Assembly (NCBI GenBank): GCA_020444515.1
Contig: JAHLKX010000009.1
Span: 1-64,000 of the forward strand
Origin: Bacteroidota bacterium
GTDB taxonomy: Bacteria > Bacteroidota > Bacteroidia > Bacteroidales > JAADJA01
Direction: 5' to 3'
Length of the DNA stretch: 64,000 bases
In this document: positions 51,920 to 62,841 of the stretch, in pieces
Layout of the letters: each line of letters opens with the position of its first letter
Numbering within the stretch: the first letter of the stretch is position 1
Position numbers and translations under genes: made by a program
Notes under the pieces: model-generated
Databases searched by the model: none
Seen by the model: only the letters and a program-made list of their open reading frames with translations
What the model was told of the DNA's origin: nothing

Positions 51920-52728
51920 ATGAAAATACCGATCTATCAGGTTGATGCTTTTACCGATCAACTGTTTGGTGGTAATCCGGCAGCAGTTTGCCCCCTGCCC
52001 TTTTGGCCCGCATCGTATACCATCCTGCAAAAAATAGCCCTTGAGAACAACCTTTCCGAGACAGCTTTCCTGGTAAAGGATGAGGATAATTTTCAGATTA
52101 GGTGGTTCACCCCAAAGGTAGAGATTGATCTGTGTGGACATGCCACCCTGGCTTCGGCTCATGTGATCTTTCATCACCTTGAATCGGGGCGTTCTGCGGT
52201 GGAATTCGAAAGCCGAAAATATGGCCGACTTAAAGTTGAATTAAATGGGAACCTCCTTACCCTTGATTTCCCGGCATTGATTGCCCATCCCATTGAACCT
52301 CCGATGAACCTGGTTAAAACTTTTGGAATTCATCCATCTGCTGTATTGGAGGCCAGAGACTTGCTGGTTGTTTTAACAAAGAAGATGACATCAGGGCACT
52401 TAATCCCGATATGGCACTGCTTAAAAAATTGAATCCTTATGCAGTCATTGTCACAGCACCCGGTCAAACCGTCGATTTTGTTTCCCGTTTTTTTGCACCC
52501 AATGTTGGCATTGAGGAGGACCCAGTGACAGGTTCAGCCCATACGACACTGGTTCCTTACTGGTCGGAAAGACTAAACAAAAACAAACTTCATGCGCTTC
52601 AGCTCTCATCAAGAAAGGGAGAAATATTTTGTGAATACAAAGAAAAAAGGGTTTTTCTTTCGGGAAAGGCAATGACTTTTATGCAGGGCGAAATTGATCT
52701 GCCTGATCGATCCTTTAACGCTAGTTAA
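51920..52728 (+). pseudogene. PhzF-family isomerase, frameshifted
   Basis: Two ORFs, 51920-52432 and 52411-52728, are halves of one PhzF-like (DAP-epimerase fold) protein. The first has YQVDAFTDQLFGGNPAAVC and LSETAFL (catalytic Glu 47); the second has EEDPVTGSAHTTL. After ...EARDLLVV the frame goes wrong; adding one T in the T run at 52371-52374 restores FNKEDDIRALNPD and joins both halves. So one base is missing, through mutation or homopolymer sequencing error. A programmed -1 shift at TTTTAAC is possible but has no precedent that I know in this family. Despite the name, PhzF homologues have diverse or unknown isomerase roles; no phenazine genes are here. Confidence 0.85.
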
Positions 52729-54975: not shown

Positions 54976-55356
54976 TCATCTCTGTTTTTTAGCAGGCACA
55001 CTTGTTTTCACCTTTTCCTTTCTTTTCATATAAGCGACAAACCCTGCAGCCGGAATGATCAAAAGTGTGGGGATGGTTGAGGCAAGGGGTCGGGGCGTCC
55101 CTCTTAGATTATGAATGCCATAGGTTAAGCTCAGGGCAATGATAGCTGGTATGAGTATAGCAATTCCAACTGCAGGAATTGGGTGTTTTATGCTAATGGC
55201 AAGATATTCACAAAGTTTCATTATGAATCCGCCAAATAAGAAAGTATAACTGCCTTGTTTAAGAGCGGCCGTCAGCGAGGGTAGCCATGCCAGGGTTGTC
55301 CAGTAATTGATCGCAAAAACAATGATCCCTAAAAAAAGTGCGCCATAAATTCCCAT
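54976..55356 (-). CDS. small integral membrane protein, unknown
   Basis: A 126-residue hydrophobic protein with probable helices at about 3-20, 34-52, 60-78 and 90-108 and a positively charged C-terminal tail (KRKEKVKTSVPAKKQR), which by the positive-inside rule is cytoplasmic. No family recognised. Its ATG faces a 552-bp region with no clear promoter. Hydrophobic pattern and length support a real gene. Confidence 0.65.
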   Translation of the reverse strand: MGIYGALFLGIIVFAINYWTTLAWLPSLTAALKQGSYTFLFGGFIMKLCEYLAISIKHPIPAVGIAILIPAIIALSLTYGIHNLRGTPRPLASTIPTLLIIPAAGFVAYMKRKEKVKTSVPAKKQR

Positions 55357-55908: not shown

Positions 55909-57249
55909 TTAGCGTGAAAGATGAATGATTGTCGATTTATAAATCTCAAACCACTGTTCATTCCATTCCCAGGTATTAAAACTGCTATTGTGCCAGATCA
56001 GGACAAATTCACCCTGATATTTTTTAACGAGGTTGATGTAATGCACCATGTTTTCCATAAAATCATCGGGATGATTGTATTTTTTGCGCAACGCAACCTC
56101 CATAACGGTAACCGGTTTTTCAATCAATTGAAGTTGTTCCCTTTTAACCAGATCAAAAACAGGAAACGAAAAACATGTACCGGCCCGAAAACCGGCATCA
56201 AAGGCAAATCCCAAAGTACTATCGTATCTTAATCCATGTTCTTCCCAGAGCCTGTAAGTATCAGGATTCTTATGACGCAGAAAATGTTGCCGTCCTCCTG
56301 TGATTTCGGGCTGAATTTGTTTTAACCGGTCCAACTCCAAAGTAAATCGCTGAGGATCATTAAAGGCCGCATAGGATGCATGCAATCCCACTTCATGTCC
56401 CCTATTTACAATTTCTTGAATCACGGCCCGGACTTTTGGTTCATGAATACTGTATCGTACATCAGGTTCTCCTGGCTCACCGGGGATAAAATAAAATCGG
56501 GATTTCAAGTTTTCAGCCTCCGAAAGGTCCATCAGCATTCTAAAAGTATCATAGTTATCAGGCTTATTTCCTGATTTTATATCAACAAAATCATGGATCG
56601 TATTCATCAGGGAGTGAAAACTTTTCCTTTGAAGGACATCGCCGGTCATGGCCCTAAGAAACCGGCTGAATTTCCTGTAACGCCATAATTCATCAATATC
56701 GTGGGTAACCATCGCTTCAAATTGATGTTCCTTTCGTTTACCCTCAAATCCAAGATAAATCAAAACATTCCAAATAAATTCCACATATTCATTGACGATG
56801 GGTCGTTGGTAAAAACCATGTTTAAATGCCAATGACTCCTCATCGGGTAAACGGTCATGAACGTCCCTTTTTAATGCGATCATCTCCTCCCAACGGGTCA
56901 ACATAAAAAAGGCGGATGAGATCAAATCAAATCCGCAATGGACATTATCACCCTTTTGAAACTTATCGTTACCATATAGTACCACCACATCAGGTTCAGT
57001 TGCAAATTGATTTTCAACAAACAGCACATTTTGAGGAAGGCGAACTTTTTGAAAAAGAGATGTTGCATCTTCAGCCTTGCTAAAAAAATGATCTTCAAAA
57101 ATTAACTTTCGTCCATTGTCTAAAATAATTGCAAAGTGTGGAGTATCAGACAATTTAATGGTATATTCTAACCTGAGATAATGCTTGAACAGAACACGTA
57201 AAATGTATTCCTTTTCAGGTAAAAAGCTATTTTGGATTTCAATCATCAT
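55909..57249 (-). CDS. polysaccharide deacetylase-family protein
   Basis: A 446-residue protein with an uncharacterised N-terminal ~180 residues and a C-terminal NodB-like deacetylase domain (about 180-440). Catalytic features are VTHDIDE (metal Asp pair) and RGHEVGLHASYAA (metal His). No signal peptide, so it is cytoplasmic or acts before export. It is last in the five-gene run and overlaps the AAC(3)-like gene by 4 nt (ATGA). It probably removes an acyl group from an amino sugar. Confidence 0.85.
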   Translation of the reverse strand: MMIEIQNSFLPEKEYILRVLFKHYLRLEYTIKLSDTPHFAIILDNGRKLIFEDHFFSKAEDATSLFQKVRLPQNVLFVENQFATEPDVVVLYGNDKFQKGDNVHCGFDLISSAFFMLTRWEEMIALKRDVHDRLPDEESLAFKHGFYQRPIVNEYVEFIWNVLIYLGFEGKRKEHQFEAMVTHDIDELWRYRKFSRFLRAMTGDVLQRKSFHSLMNTIHDFVDIKSGNKPDNYDTFRMLMDLSEAENLKSRFYFIPGEPGEPDVRYSIHEPKVRAVIQEIVNRGHEVGLHASYAAFNDPQRFTLELDRLKQIQPEITGGRQHFLRHKNPDTYRLWEEHGLRYDSTLGFAFDAGFRAGTCFSFPVFDLVKREQLQLIEKPVTVMEVALRKKYNHPDDFMENMVHYINLVKKYQGEFVLIWHNSSFNTWEWNEQWFEIYKSTIIHLSR

Positions 57250-58148
57250 GCTCGTTTCATCAATACCCGGTACAGGTTTTTAAAGCGGCTTAGTGAAAGG
57301 TTTTTTGAATTTTTTCGTAACCAGGCCCATCCAAAAGAAAGGTAATTTTTAGGGGAATGCTCCCAACTGATCTGGCACGAATAACAGGCAGGATCATCGC
57401 AAAAGAAAAACCGGGGTTCCTGCTGTAGCTTTGCGATTTCAATGGCCAGGGTTTTTTTCATAGAAGTGAGCACTGAATCAGCATTCCCTATCTTCCCCTC
57501 AGCAAGCATACCGCCTTTTTCACGATAGAGGGGATAAAACTTTGGGAAACCACGCCCGCACCCACCGTTCCAGTTCGTTTTGGCCAGCTTCACTTCGCCA
57601 TCCTGATCCCGGTAAAGCGCACCGGTGTTCATCTCCTTACGTTTGAAGTTAAGATGATCAATGGCTACATGGGTAGTACCGACTCCCACCACATCACCGC
57701 CAATGGTGAGATTTTTGGCATCCATTTGAGCCATTGCGTCTAACAAGTCATAACCACCTGATTCTGGAGTATGATTTTCACATAGATTTAAAGCCTGTTT
57801 CCCAATGGCTGCAAATTTTTGAATGGGATGCTTGCTTCTTTCCATTTTGGGATGCTTGATCATGGCATTGGCAAATGCACCGGCGTATGAAAGGGTTTTA
57901 TCATCAGCAATAATTTGTTGGTGTTCTTCGGAAAGGGGCAAAGGAAATACATTTATAAAAGCATCAGAAACAATGGTTCCTTCCTCCCCAACAGTTTCGA
58001 GGATGGCGTCGAGAAGTTCATCGGCTCCCCCTTCCAGTTTGCCTACCGAACGCATGGACACTTTGAGATGAAGCAAATCGCCCTGTTGCAGACCAATTGC
58101 TTTTAAATCCCTGACAAGTGAATCCTTATTTACTGTACCCGAACTCAT
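57246..58148 (-). CDS. AAC(3)-fold acyltransferase
   Basis: A 300-residue member of the aminoglycoside 3-N-acetyltransferase/YokD fold family, which transfers acyl groups from CoA to amines. Seen are LHLKVSMRSVGKLEGG near the N-terminus, HPIQKFAAIG, and VGTTHVAIDHLN in the CoA/acceptor region. A C-terminal Cys/His cluster (FFCDDPACYSCQISW) is additional to the family core. Despite the family name, its place between a CoA-ester lyase and a deacetylase in a glycan operon suggests acylation of a surface amino sugar rather than drug resistance (inference). It overlaps both neighbours by 4 nt. Confidence 0.85.
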   Translation of the reverse strand: MSSGTVNKDSLVRDLKAIGLQQGDLLHLKVSMRSVGKLEGGADELLDAILETVGEEGTIVSDAFINVFPLPLSEEHQQIIADDKTLSYAGAFANAMIKHPKMERSKHPIQKFAAIGKQALNLCENHTPESGGYDLLDAMAQMDAKNLTIGGDVVGVGTTHVAIDHLNFKRKEMNTGALYRDQDGEVKLAKTNWNGGCGRGFPKFYPLYREKGGMLAEGKIGNADSVLTSMKKTLAIEIAKLQQEPRFFFCDDPACYSCQISWEHSPKNYLSFGWAWLRKNSKNLSLSRFKNLYRVLMKRA

Positions 58149-59059
58149 TTATGCTTTATAAAATCAAGATAGTTTTTAATGTTGCTGCTTCGTTCAAATA
58201 ATTTTCTTGCTGCTTTCAGAGTAGGCGGCGAAACAAAAATCCCTTCATGGATGATAATTCCCCGGTCGTTTTTAGCGGCTTCCTCAGCAAGTCTGATAAT
58301 TTCAGCCGCTCTATTTACTTCATTTTCATCGGGCGTGTAACGCTCGTGGATGATGTCAATTTCGCGGGGCGACATCACCAACATCCCCTCATAACCCATA
58401 TCCCGGGCTTGCTCAATGTGTTCCTTCAATCCTTCAAAATCACCCACCTGAACATAAGGAGAATCAATGGCCATGATTTTGTTAGCCTTGGCTGTTAAAG
58501 CCACCATATGCCTTGGCGTTTGCATTCCTCGAGCTTCTTTGCCATGTCGGCCCTCCTGTTCTGCAAGGAAATCTTCACTTCCGAATAGCAAGCCTACGAG
58601 GCGCTTTGATGCAGCAGCAATCTCCCGAAGATTAAGAACGCCTTCAGGTGTTTCTATCAGAGCGATCACATCGAAATAATGGGGTGGTAAGCCAAGTTGT
58701 TTTTCTTTGAGGAAAAGCTGGGCATCGAAAGCAATGAGATCTTCGCGAGTGTTGGTCATAGGATAAACAAAGCCATTCAGGTTTTGACATGCTGTTGCGT
58801 CGATATCCATCATGGTAAGGCCCGTTTCCAATGGATTGATGCGAACATAAACCGGACGATTATCAGGAAGTGGTTGGGCCAAAAATTCGCGTAAAATTTC
58901 ACGGGCCTCTTTTTTTCTGCTCTCCGGAACAGCATCCTCCAGATCATAAACGATCGCATCGGCAGCCGTTTGAAATGACTTATCAAGGTATTTCCGATTG
59001 TGCCCGGCCGTAAACAACAGACTTCTATGGATCAGTTTGCCATTATATTTTTTCTTCAT
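58145..59059 (-). CDS. CoA-ester lyase (HpcH/HpaI/CitE family)
   Basis: A 304-residue TIM-barrel CitE-like enzyme (malyl-, methylmalyl- or citramalyl-CoA lyase group). Seen are YDLEDAVPESRK (metal Glu/Asp), YVRINPLETG, IALIETPEGVLN and GSEDFLAE. It cleaves or forms a 3-hydroxy-acyl-CoA ester with Mg2+. The gene follows a MaoC hydratase by 12 bp and overlaps the AAC(3)-like gene by 4 nt. The lyase plus hydratase pair resembles the mesaconyl-/methylmalyl-CoA pathway, but the glycan context points to making an acyl donor. Confidence 0.88.
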   Translation of the reverse strand: MKKKYNGKLIHRSLLFTAGHNRKYLDKSFQTAADAIVYDLEDAVPESRKKEAREILREFLAQPLPDNRPVYVRINPLETGLTMMDIDATACQNLNGFVYPMTNTREDLIAFDAQLFLKEKQLGLPPHYFDVIALIETPEGVLNLREIAAASKRLVGLLFGSEDFLAEQEGRHGKEARGMQTPRHMVALTAKANKIMAIDSPYVQVGDFEGLKEHIEQARDMGYEGMLVMSPREIDIIHERYTPDENEVNRAAEIIRLAEEAAKNDRGIIIHEGIFVSPPTLKAARKLFERSSNIKNYLDFIKHK

Positions 59060-59071
59060 TTGAATGTTTAT

Positions 59072-59542
59072 TTAAGGTTTTAAAACAGGAACCAGCACAT
59101 CCCTTGAAAACTCCAAAACTTCCTCTTCCCGTTGATTATAGGCAATCGTCTTTACCGATACTACGCCTCTGTCAGGTTTTGATTTTGATTTACGAACATT
59201 CAGCACTTCAGTTTTAGCATGGAGTGTATCGCCAATAAAAACCGGACCCGAATGTCTAATTTCATGATAACCCAAATTGGCAATGGCCCTGCCACTAACA
59301 TCGGCTACCGTAAGGCCGACTACCAGCGAAAAAACAAGTGTTCCAACCACAAGCACCCTTCCATGTTGTTGATCTTTCACATATTCCTGGTCGAGATGTA
59401 ACGGATGATGATTCATCGTTATCAGAGAAAACAAATTATTATCCGATTCTGTTATGGTTTTTCGAAGTGCGTGTTCATATACATCACCAACCTCGAATTC
59501 GTCAAAATATCGACCATATTGAACTGCTTTATGATTTGTCAT
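59072..59542 (-). CDS. MaoC-family acyl-CoA dehydratase/hydratase
   Basis: A 156-residue hot-dog fold protein. The catalytic motif is ITMNHHPLHLD (the Asp/His hydratase site), followed by a VGTLVFSLVVGL helix. MaoC-like enzymes hydrate 2-enoyl-CoA or, in the mesaconyl-CoA subgroup, act next to a CitE-type lyase. It overlaps the flippase gene by 4 nt, so it is translated in step with a membrane exporter. Specific substrate unknown. Confidence 0.87.
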   Translation of the reverse strand: MTNHKAVQYGRYFDEFEVGDVYEHALRKTITESDNNLFSLITMNHHPLHLDQEYVKDQQHGRVLVVGTLVFSLVVGLTVADVSGRAIANLGYHEIRHSGPVFIGDTLHAKTEVLNVRKSKSKPDRGVVSVKTIAYNQREEEVLEFSRDVLVPVLKP

Positions 59543-60825
59543 GATGTTTTACCTTTGACTGTATTGAACAAAATTAATAGAAAAAACAAATAATAAACCG
59601 AGAGTACGATCACATAGATCAGCAAAAAGGTTTCAAATGCCACTTTATATTGCCATGCATATCCAAAAACAAGGAGCGTTACAATCAACATCCCCACTTG
59701 CAGAAACAGGGAACGGTGTTGTTTTTCAAAAATACTGAGACTCACCGAAACTGGACTTACTACAAAACGGATAAAAAGCAGCGGAATGAGGTAACGCGCA
59801 TAAGTTCCCGCAACCCGCCATTCTTCACCAAAGACAAATGCAAAAATGGGTTCAGCAAACAAAAAAATAATTGTAAAGACCGGGAGTCCGACCAAAATTA
59901 GTTTTTTCAAGACGGAGTTAAAGGTAATTGTGGCTTTACCCGACCGTTCTTTCTCGTTTGATGCTTCCTGCATATAAAGCTGGCCGATACTGGTACCAAT
60001 AAGTGAGCTCGGAAATCCCAGCATGCGCATACCAAGGGAATAAAATCCCAGGGTTGTTACATTAAAAATCAATGATATCAGAATATTCGTTAGATCAGTG
60101 GCCATTTTATTGGCCAACGTGGCTGGAAAGGTAAATATGGGGAATCGTTTATAACGACGGGCCATCCGTCTCATTCCTGACTTACTGATTTCAGTTCTCA
60201 GATTTTCATCCTGCACAAAATTCTTGAATAATTTAAAGTTACCAAACAGATGAGAGATGGCGTAGCCCAGGATCAAACCACCAAAAGCCATTTTACCAAA
60301 GCCTGCAACCAGCTGCACACTCACCATAGCCACTGATTTCACCACCCTCGAAAAGGCAATGGCCTTATACTTTTTTACCCGGGTATTGTAATAATTAAGC
60401 ATTCCGTACATACCAACCAGGAATACCACCGGTGGCACCAAATAAATCCACCCAGCAAGTCGCTCATCGCCAATTATCACCACAACCGAATCATGGAACA
60501 GGAATAATATGATCAACAGGAACGCACTTAAGAAAAAAGAAATCACCAAACCCAAAGAAACAATATTTACTGCATCCGAATCTTTTTCAGGTAACAAAAC
60601 CGCTAATTCATATTTTAGGTTGGCTACAATACCAAGAATGACCGATACCGACATAAATAAAGCAAGTATTCCAAAATCATCTGGTGAGTATATTCGCGTA
60701 AGGATCGGAGAGACCAAAACCGGCAGGGCTTGGGCAAGTGAGGTTCCGGTGACCAGGGTTACCAAATTTTTTGTAAAAGTCGAGTGTTGCTTAAAATTAA
60801 ACGGATTCTTCAACGGTGGACTCAA
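59539..60825 (-). CDS. oligosaccharide flippase (Wzx-like, MOP superfamily)
   Basis: A 428-residue membrane protein with 12-14 predicted helices and the Wzx/PST N-terminus (FTKNLVTLVTGTSLAQALPV followed by ILTRIYSPDDFGILAL). It moves undecaprenyl-linked oligosaccharide across the inner membrane. Start ambiguous: TTG at 60825 or TTG at 60813; the -7 element at 60835-60842 favours 60813, because it leaves a usable leader. It is first in the operon; all four downstream genes are coupled or closely spaced. Confidence 0.88.
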   Translation of the reverse strand: MSPPLKNPFNFKQHSTFTKNLVTLVTGTSLAQALPVLVSPILTRIYSPDDFGILALFMSVSVILGIVANLKYELAVLLPEKDSDAVNIVSLGLVISFFLSAFLLIILFLFHDSVVVIIGDERLAGWIYLVPPVVFLVGMYGMLNYYNTRVKKYKAIAFSRVVKSVAMVSVQLVAGFGKMAFGGLILGYAISHLFGNFKLFKNFVQDENLRTEISKSGMRRMARRYKRFPIFTFPATLANKMATDLTNILISLIFNVTTLGFYSLGMRMLGFPSSLIGTSIGQLYMQEASNEKERSGKATITFNSVLKKLILVGLPVFTIIFLFAEPIFAFVFGEEWRVAGTYARYLIPLLFIRFVVSPVSVSLSIFEKQHRSLFLQVGMLIVTLLVFGYAWQYKVAFETFLLIYVIVLSVYYLFFLLILFNTVKGKTS

Positions 60826-60834
60826 TTAGCTTTA

Positions 60835-60842
60835 CAAAAGTA
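60835..60842 (-). promoter_or_regulatory. -7 element of flippase operon
   Basis: Minus-strand TACTTTTG, a full match to TAnnTTTG, directly upstream of the flippase start. No clear -33. Transcript start near 60828. Confidence 0.45.
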
Positions 60843-61194: not shown

Positions 61195-62841
61195 TTAGCT
61201 ATATAAATACCGCTTGATGCTTTTCTTTGGTGTTTTCGCAAATTCTTCCGGGTGTTCTTCAATGGATGAGATATTCATATATCCTGGTAATTTGTGGTTA
61301 AGAACTTTCTGATGATGGCGAAGAATTTTTTCGAGATCCTCTTTTCCTATCTTATCCTTTTTCACAATTTCTGCATCGGGAAAGACCATGGCAACCAGTT
61401 TATCATTTCTGTGAACCACCATTGATTCTGCTACTAAATATTGGTTATTTAGCATGGATTCAATTTCTTCAGGGTAGATATTTTTACCATTTGCACCAAG
61501 GATCATACTTTTACTGCGCCCTTTGATATACATGAATCCATCCCGGTCCCTGAAACCCAGGTCGCCTGTTTTAAGCCAACCTTCATCATCAAGCACTTTT
61601 CGGGTATCTTCTGCATTTTTATAATACCCCATCATAACATTATCACCACGCACATAAATTTCACCGATTGTGTCATCCAGCGATTCCTTTTCAATTTTCA
61701 CTTCCAGGGTATCCACCATCTTACCCGAAGAGCCTGCAGGCAAACCCCTCCAGCCGTGATAGCTGATCAAAGGTCCGCACTCAGTCATTCCATAGCCCAG
61801 GGTATACTTGAATTTCGTACGTCTGAAAAACATTTCGACCTCATGGTTCAATGGTGCTCCGCCCATGACAATCTCATGAAAATTTCCCCCAAACGTTTCT
61901 GTCAATTTTTCCCGAAATTTTGATAATATAACTTGGTTCACTACAGGGATTGCCAGCAATAATTTCATATACCATTTGGAGATCACCGGGAGCAATCTAT
62001 TTTTATAAATTTTCTCTATTACAATTGGCACCGATAGGATCAGTGAGGGCTTTATTTCCTGAAAGGCTTTCATGATAATTTGCGGGGAAGGGGTTTTGGT
62101 GAGAATGGTAATATCACATCCCAGGGTAAATGGGAACAAAAACTCAAAAGCACATCCAAAGGTATGGGCAAGGGGTAAAAATGATACGATCTTATCACCG
62201 GGCCGCAGTGGCATATTGTTTTGGGCAAATCGCATATTGGCTGCAAGACTGTTATGCTGCAACATGACACCCTTTGTAAAACCAGTTGTCCCGGAGGTAT
62301 AACTTAATACTGCTAAATGATCATTGGGAATTCCATCCATTTTAAAATCGCCTGGTTTCCATTCCTTCTCATCCCTTTTATCTGACAGACCAGATGTTTT
62401 AAAGGCTTCAATAAGTCTATCGGTTTTACATTTCTGAACCGTAAAATCATTGATTTGAATGACCCCATGCAACTTTTCCACTTCCGGACATTTCAAAGAA
62501 CCGATCATCTGATCACCGGCAAACAGCAACACTGAATCAGAATGACCAATGATCTTGTGCAGATCGTCGATTTTAAAATCAGGAAGGATAGGCACAACCA
62601 CTGCACCATAGGTTACCACAGCGATATACAAAATACCCCACCTTGCAGAGTTTTTGCCAAGAATGGCAATTTTATCCCCCCGGGTTATATTCAGCGAATG
62701 AAACAATTTATGAAATCGCAACACTTAGGTCCCTATCTGACCATATGTAAAAGATTCACCATTATAATCCGACAGGGCTCTTTTTTCCCAGTTTTTTTTG
62801 ATACTCTCCGAAAGGAAGGAAACAAAAGTTTTATCTACCAT
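61195..62841 (-). pseudogene. long-chain acyl-CoA synthetase (AMP-binding) with in-frame stop at codon 39
   Basis: The intact family frame starts at the ATG 62841 (SIKKNWEKRALSDYNGESF, then TYGQIGT), meets TAA at 62725-62727, and continues in the same frame as VLRFHKLFHSLNITRGDK. Only one codon is wrong; by family alignment an acidic or Lys codon became a stop. A GTG (62724) directly after the stop could restart translation and give 509 residues that hold all core motifs: SYTSGTTGFTKG, GYGMTECGP, TGDLGFRDRDGFMYIKGR and the KNIYPEEIE hinge. The loss is 39 residues. It activates fatty acids as acyl-AMP then acyl-CoA. It may be functional by restart, decaying, or a sequencing error. Confidence 0.8.

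Follow-up and report, generated by a model that had tools for sequence, protein, structure and literature searches.

A conserved Bacteroidota operon that joins a MaoC-like hydratase and a CitE-like protein without the lid aspartate to a flippase: a candidate glycan N-acylation cassette

A run of five genes in a 64,000-nucleotide stretch of a Bacteroidota genome (GenBank contig JAHLKX010000009.1; the whole stretch is called the window here) combines a MaoC-like hydratase and a CitE-like protein, both of families that handle coenzyme A (CoA) esters, with a flippase, an AAC(3)-fold acyltransferase, and a VimE-like deacetylase. To our knowledge, where the acyl chain comes from has not been established for many N-acyl groups of surface sugars. 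MaoC-fold hydratases and CitE-like lyases work together as RipB/RipC in itaconate degradation and as Mch/Mcl in the ethylmalonyl-CoA and 3-hydroxypropionate pathways, and the same pairing is present in the window. Unlike in those systems, the CitE-like protein of the window has lost the lid Asp, no CoA-transferase is in the run, the neighborhood of its clade is one of glycan genes, and the scores are under the equivalog cut-offs. The Bacillus anthrose operon likewise combines a hydratase for an acyl-CoA and an acyltransferase within a sugar operon, but concerns a different sugar and is not known to include a CitE-like protein, AAC(3), or deacetylase.

In the Wbp/Vim linking-sugar pathway of Porphyromonas gingivalis and Tannerella forsythia, the relevant passages of PMC7468200 propose that the deacetylase VimE frees an N-acetyl site on a sugar precursor for re-acylation, and describe replacement of the acetyl group by an amino acid. 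The window operon is similar in having a VimE-related deacetylase. It differs in that its acyltransferase is of the AAC(3) fold and not VimA, CoA-ester enzymes are part of the operon, the deacetylase stays at 170 bits where the VimE model requires 440, and WbpB was not found in two genomes with the full cassette. For Flavobacterium psychrophilum, the part of PMC6519341 that treats the R-group genes predicts that a PglD homolog with acyl-making genes nearby determines which N-acyl group an O-antigen sugar carries. The joining of acyl-making genes to a sugar N-acyltransferase of PglD type is a further likeness; unlike in the window, the same part of PMC6519341 ascribes the acyl chain to acyl carrier protein, ketoacyl-synthase, and reductase genes. 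N-malyl and 3-hydroxybutyryl groups on 2,3-diaminoglucuronic acid are among the substituents described for O-polysaccharides (PMC3210612).

The genes and the lid motif discussed below are as follows, with E-values in parentheses.

59539-60825, minus strand: Wzx-type flippase with a TTG start (Pfam Polysacc_synt_3, 3.7e-27)
59072-59542, minus strand: MaoC-like hydratase/dehydratase (PF01575, 2.2e-20; MC_hydratase, 1.3e-16)
58145-59059, minus strand: CitE-like lyase (Pfam HpcH_HpaI, 2.5e-39)
58223-58237, minus strand: lid motif FVSPP of the CitE-like protein, residues 275-279, with the Ser277 codon at 58229-58231
57246-58148, minus strand: AAC(3)-fold N-acyltransferase (PF02522 Antibiotic_NAT, 3.8e-26; 92.5 bits, cut-off 25)
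55909-57249, minus strand: VimE-like deacetylase with a DUF7033 domain (DUF7033, 4.6e-28; NF053580 VimE, 7.4e-50)

Open reading frame (ORF) calls gave ATGA overlaps of 4 bp each at 59539-59542, 58145-58148, and 57246-57249, and a 12-bp gap (59060-59071) between the MaoC-like and CitE-like genes. Together with the Pfam and NCBIfam matches, they confirmed the five-gene run, gene order, overlaps, and gap described in a first-pass annotation of the window.

Conservation was assessed in a family sample of 17 genomes (all of one genus), 295 genomes of the order, 395 of the class, and a phylum sample of 395; counts across related genomes are not independent. At E ≤ 1e-65, the CitE-like protein was found in three of the 17 family genomes: the window genome, G687 (89% identity), and G691 (76%). 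Both congeners carry all five genes in the window order, at 69-89% identity in G687 and 46-76% in G691 (loci L008 and L036). This identical order in G687 and G691 indicates that the run exceeds chance. Flippase homologs shared a gene run with AAC(3) at L035 (76%), L008 (62%), and L014 (51%). Past the deacetylase, G687 has genes in common with the window (RecQ and others), but an Acyl_transf_3 gene intervenes (L035:5710-6792; PF01757, 9.7e-31). It may encode an O-acyltransferase; the window has at this place a small ORF (54976-55356) for which the scan gave no family match. In G691, the contig ends just beyond the deacetylase and the flippase-side genes match no window ORF, flanks that fit a block moving as one.

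CitE-like proteins of at least 55% identity occurred, among the order genomes, only in the window genome and G065, and at E ≤ 1e-65 the window genome was the only one of the class genomes with a match. All four CitE-like proteins found at this identity accompany MaoC, AAC(3), and VimE-like genes. The block of G065, a member of another family, has diverged (L009/L010): MaoC, CitE-like, an inserted YhcG/DUF1016 nuclease, AAC(3), an ORF without a Pfam match that looks membrane-like by eye, and the deacetylase. Beyond it lie an opposite-strand ORF without a match and then genes for GT4 and GT2 glycosyltransferases, Wzy_C, a DegT aminotransferase, and a sugar transferase (Bac_transf). Homologs of the GT4, GT2, and Wzy_C proteins (51, 43, and 33% identity) are encoded together in the window genome, away from the operon, and a homolog of the aminotransferase (62%) at a separate further place. 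The earlier suggestion that the glycan is made elsewhere, no glycosyltransferase being in the run, is thus consistent with both genomes. Parts of the block also recur: AAC(3) is found together with a deacetylase in G143, and in G274 it adjoins a flippase-like gene within an apparent glycan cluster.

Passages of PMC3832036 describe the lid Asp as conserved throughout the CitE-like superfamily, a single clade that has Glu being the exception; the lid of malyl-CoA lyases covers the active site of the neighboring subunit, and lid Glu is characteristic of the malyl-CoA thioesterase clade. This residue is Asp318/Asp299 of malyl-CoA lyases, and the window protein has Ser277 in its place. In a profile alignment, lid Asp was present in all five PDB relatives (the malyl-CoA lyases 5ugr and 4l9y, CLYBL 5vxc, 1sgj, and 3qll, which is named RipC in PMC3832036), and the window family had Ser. 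E. coli CitE also has Asp at the lid position. The Mg ligands, the Arg, and the Glu-Asp pair are kept (E41, D42, R73, E136, and D163 in 17/17 proteins). Across a clade of 24 CitE-like proteins that includes the window protein, the lid residue is Gly in 19 and Ser in five, and Asp in none. The loss makes doubtful the canonical mesaconyl-/methylmalyl-CoA reaction that the first-pass annotation had assigned to the MaoC and CitE-like pair, and speaks against ordinary malyl-CoA synthesis; we do not claim malyl as the acyl group.

The Asp-less proteins form a clade with a constant partner. Thirteen distant relatives in the order (32-38% identity) have lid Gly (12) or Ser (one), and all are encoded beside a MaoC gene; the set L020-L032 was chosen by likeness to the window CitE-like protein, not by MaoC. 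Searching the phylum sample with profile A7 yielded seven further strong matches (E < 1e-90), all with Gly and all beside MaoC; the lid residue was read for 34 of the 54 match rows. A MaoC gene thus accompanies the Asp-less gene in 24/24 cases, with one ORF between them at L073. Weaker matches (E > 1e-66) had Asp at 22/22 loci, and in a second set, which shares seven loci with the first, at nine of 10, the tenth having Glu. Among phylum-sample loci, MaoC was within ~1.5 kb of 8/8 Asp-less proteins (window included) versus 2/22 Asp-type proteins. A maximum-likelihood tree separated the 24 Asp-less rows from 10 Asp rows and one Glu row by a branch with 100/99 support, several rows being on long branches and of unsure placement. 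Asn44 and His49 of the MaoC-like protein are invariant in 17/17, as in domain 2 of PDB chains 4e3e and 8hgn; we take them to correspond to the Asp/His positions of hydratases. At eight of 20 loci (L065, L069, L076, L109, L110, L112, L113, and L114), a second, shorter CitE paralog lies beside MaoC, with lid Glu in all eight; this paralog and the Asp-less protein may assemble into mixed trimers. ORFs that adjoin the Asp-less gene at L065:8266-9911 have starts reminiscent of PanB and of a beta-keto acid cleavage enzyme, and hint at further acyl chemistry in such clusters.

Genomic neighborhoods tie the pair strongly to glycan loci. Three neighbors per side, excluding CitE/MaoC matches, were examined at 20 Asp-less loci (120 proteins) and at 10 controls (58 proteins, one locus giving four) that were hand-picked from the profile A7 match list and include one with lid Glu (L124). 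Gene calls came from a simple longest-ORF script, by which some genes may be overlooked or wrongly called; a NeuD-type gene at L075 was missed and recovered by tblastn. The 25 of 83 families listed for Asp-less neighbors included Hexapep (16), Glycos_transf_2 (11), DegT, FdtA, and Polysacc_synt (eight each), PglD_N (seven), and a WbmS-like deacetylase (two). Asp/Glu controls had CitF (seven), aconitase (five), and MmgE/PrpD (four), and none of those glycan families was among the 25 of 87 families listed for them. Nine NeuD-like neighbors all matched TIGR03570 (1e-35 to 1e-48), although only one exceeded the curated cut-off, and with these nine as queries a NeuD/PglD-type gene was detected at 17/20 Asp-less loci (all except L067, L072, and L109) versus 0/10 controls. 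These tallies indicate that the pair accompanies amino-sugar pathways and sugar acyltransferases, with the type of acyltransferase as the variable part.

The AAC(3)-like protein of the window reaches at best 79 of 270 bits with the aminoglycoside-resistance equivalogs, below the cut-off. Its Cys residues 197, 250, 255, and 258 are invariant in six relatives, which suggests a metal site, presumably atypical of the aminoglycoside enzymes. With profile A1 at E ≤ 1e-55, the window genome was the only match among the phylum genomes. Three haloarchaeal relatives (32-34% identity) are plasmid-borne; some of them lie close to a gene for a PIG-L deacetylase, DegT, or a flippase, and no MaoC or CitE is among the features listed within 9 kb. 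The deacetylase, for which DUF7033 is the sole Pfam match, is nearest to VimE but not a proven equivalog, as judged from NF053580 scores; its homologs at L036 and L010 score 153 and 196 bits. A second VimE-like gene in the window genome (G000), at L056:8545-10794 (G000:C14; 156 bits), adjoins an ORF without family matches that, to guess from its place and start, may be VimA/FemAB-like. Toward a Wbp pathway, the supplier of UDP-2,3-diNAc-glucuronate, the window genome also has a WbpB-like gene (2.7e-113 to a WbpB structure), a WbpE-like gene (4.1e-118), an acetyltransferase like 3mqg (6.4e-62), which we take to be WbpD-type, and a TviB-like UDP-sugar dehydrogenase (474 of 592 bits). WbpB was found at E ≤ 1e-60 in three of the 17 family genomes and 12 of 25 other genomes tested, being present in G065 and G070 and not found in G143.

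Taken together, the conserved gene unit and the module seen at glycan loci, with MaoC in 24/24 cases and glycan-rich neighbors, make CoA chemistry serving glycan acylation the best reading, and this general idea of the first-pass annotation is strengthened. From the gene families and their neighborhoods, the operon is probably a glycan N-acylation cassette in which the MaoC/CitE-like pair supplies a special acyl-CoA. We infer that the pair would synthesize or modify a short acyl-CoA of an unusual kind, its acid being hydroxylated or unsaturated and perhaps carboxylated, in whichever direction and by whichever reaction. The VimE-like protein would take an N-acetyl group off an amino sugar in nucleotide-sugar or lipid-linked form, the AAC(3)-fold enzyme would load the special acyl group onto the freed amine, and the flippase would export the putatively lipid-linked product. 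In most clusters NeuD/PglD enzymes would make the transfer, and in the window AAC(3) would do so after VimE-like deacetylation. The proposed route through AAC(3) and a deacetylase is only one kind of partnership, NeuD/PglD types being found in 17/20 other clusters. Nor need an amine be exposed in the finished glycan, as had been supposed, since the substrate proposed for VimE is a sugar precursor.

Several observations weigh against this interpretation. The lid Asp, proposed to protonate or deprotonate the enolate, is gone in 24/24, and C-C chemistry on an acyl-CoA is not assured. G070 has the flippase, AAC(3) (as two ORFs), and the deacetylase without MaoC/CitE, showing that the two halves of the cassette can separate. 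The AAC(3) gene of G029 has no flippase- or deacetylase-type neighbors, and neither it nor that of G274 has a VimE-like neighbor. Some neighbors of Asp-less loci are not glycan genes (for example, left of L077 and right of L108). A NeuD/PglD-type gene is nearby at 0/3 loci of the window clade, so that the acyltransferase link there depends on AAC(3). AlphaFold models from three-sequence alignments had a mean predicted local distance difference test score (pLDDT) of 42 for the AAC(3)-like and 53 for the VimE-like protein, too poor for active-site tests. Finally, WbpB (E ≤ 1e-60) was not found in the full-cassette drafts G687 and G691 (90 and 95% complete), which makes it unlikely that the cassette requires the Wbp/Vim sugar as its acceptor. 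An obligatory Wbp acceptor, favored at first from the Wbp-like genes of the window genome, was weakened by these two drafts; such an acceptor is possible in the window genome, not general.

Of the alternatives, the one that survives best, though we consider it unlikely, is that the CitE-like protein, instead of cleaving C-C bonds, serves as a thioesterase, a hydratase partner, or a structural subunit; in clusters with the second paralog, the two CitE-like proteins would then form a lid-exchanging mixed trimer, and in the window MaoC alone would make the acyl-CoA. Lid Gly/Ser in 24/24 and lid Glu in 8/8 second paralogs point this way, as do the reach of the malyl-CoA lyase lid over the neighboring active site and the Glu of the thioesterase clade in the passages of PMC3832036 cited above. 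However, blastp (1e-4) found no second paralog in the window operon or at 12/20 loci, and the retained metal and Arg residues make the barrel site look active.

It is still less probable that the CitE-like protein is a pyruvate- or glyoxylate-dependent aldolase of the HpcH/HpaI type, acting on a sugar or other aldehyde to give an ulosonic acid or branched precursor instead of an acyl-CoA. This would account for the Pfam HpcH_HpaI match and for genes in some Asp-less clusters whose starts look NeuB- and PseG-like, but the constant MaoC partner (a CoA-thioester fold) and the retained C-terminal lid region argue against it. Most improbable of all is a catabolic role for the pair in degradation of the itaconate-, mesaconate-, or methylmalyl-CoA type, like that of RipB/RipC, its place by the flippase being due to chance: although the best NCBIfam models are RipB for the MaoC-like protein (137 of 340 bits) and CitE TIGR01588 (175 bits) and RipC (134 of 375 bits) for the lyase, all far under cut-off, and in the phylum sample a MaoC gene is likewise found with two Asp-type lyases, no CoA-transferase (RipA) is among the five genes or the two flanking ORFs scanned (54976-55356 and 61195-62724), the clade as a whole has glycan-rich neighborhoods and no lid Asp, and its Asp-type relatives, one of them in the window genome, mostly neighbor CitF, aconitase, and PrpD genes.

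Around the operon, the upstream acyl-CoA synthetase gene (61195-62724, AMP-binding) was considered as a member of the system and rejected because a close homolog (E ≤ 1e-150) occurs in only two of the 17 family genomes, neither of them G687 or G691. A TAnnTTTG box, which we take to be a Bacteroidota-like consensus, lies on the minus strand at 60835-60842, and since this is only ~10 bases ahead of the flippase TTG, the exact start of that gene is unsure. The promoter pattern had six matches in the window versus 4.2 expected, none of them near the operon. A frameshift seems to have broken one gene, presumably of the PhzF type, into two ORFs that overlap in different frames at 51920-52728.

We tentatively suggest an undescribed pathway, in which MaoC and a Gly/Ser-lid CitE-like protein may make the N-acyl group of an amino sugar by a reaction new to the CitE superfamily, in surface-glycan clusters of several Bacteroidota orders, with a NeuD/PglD or AAC(3) enzyme plugged in for the transfer. 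Among the titles and abstract beginnings found in the open-access PMC literature, no glycan module of MaoC with an (Asp-less) CitE-like protein was described. N-acyl groups of surface sugars help set serotype, and antigenic differences are tied to the R-group genes in the part of PMC6519341 concerned with them. With MaoC and an Asp-less CitE-like protein as a two-gene marker, those Bacteroidota clusters that produce an unusual N-acyl group could be predicted from sequence. The Asp-less clade would also be a case of CitE-superfamily enzymes obliged to do without the residue to which handling of the enolate is attributed, and their chemistry may be new.

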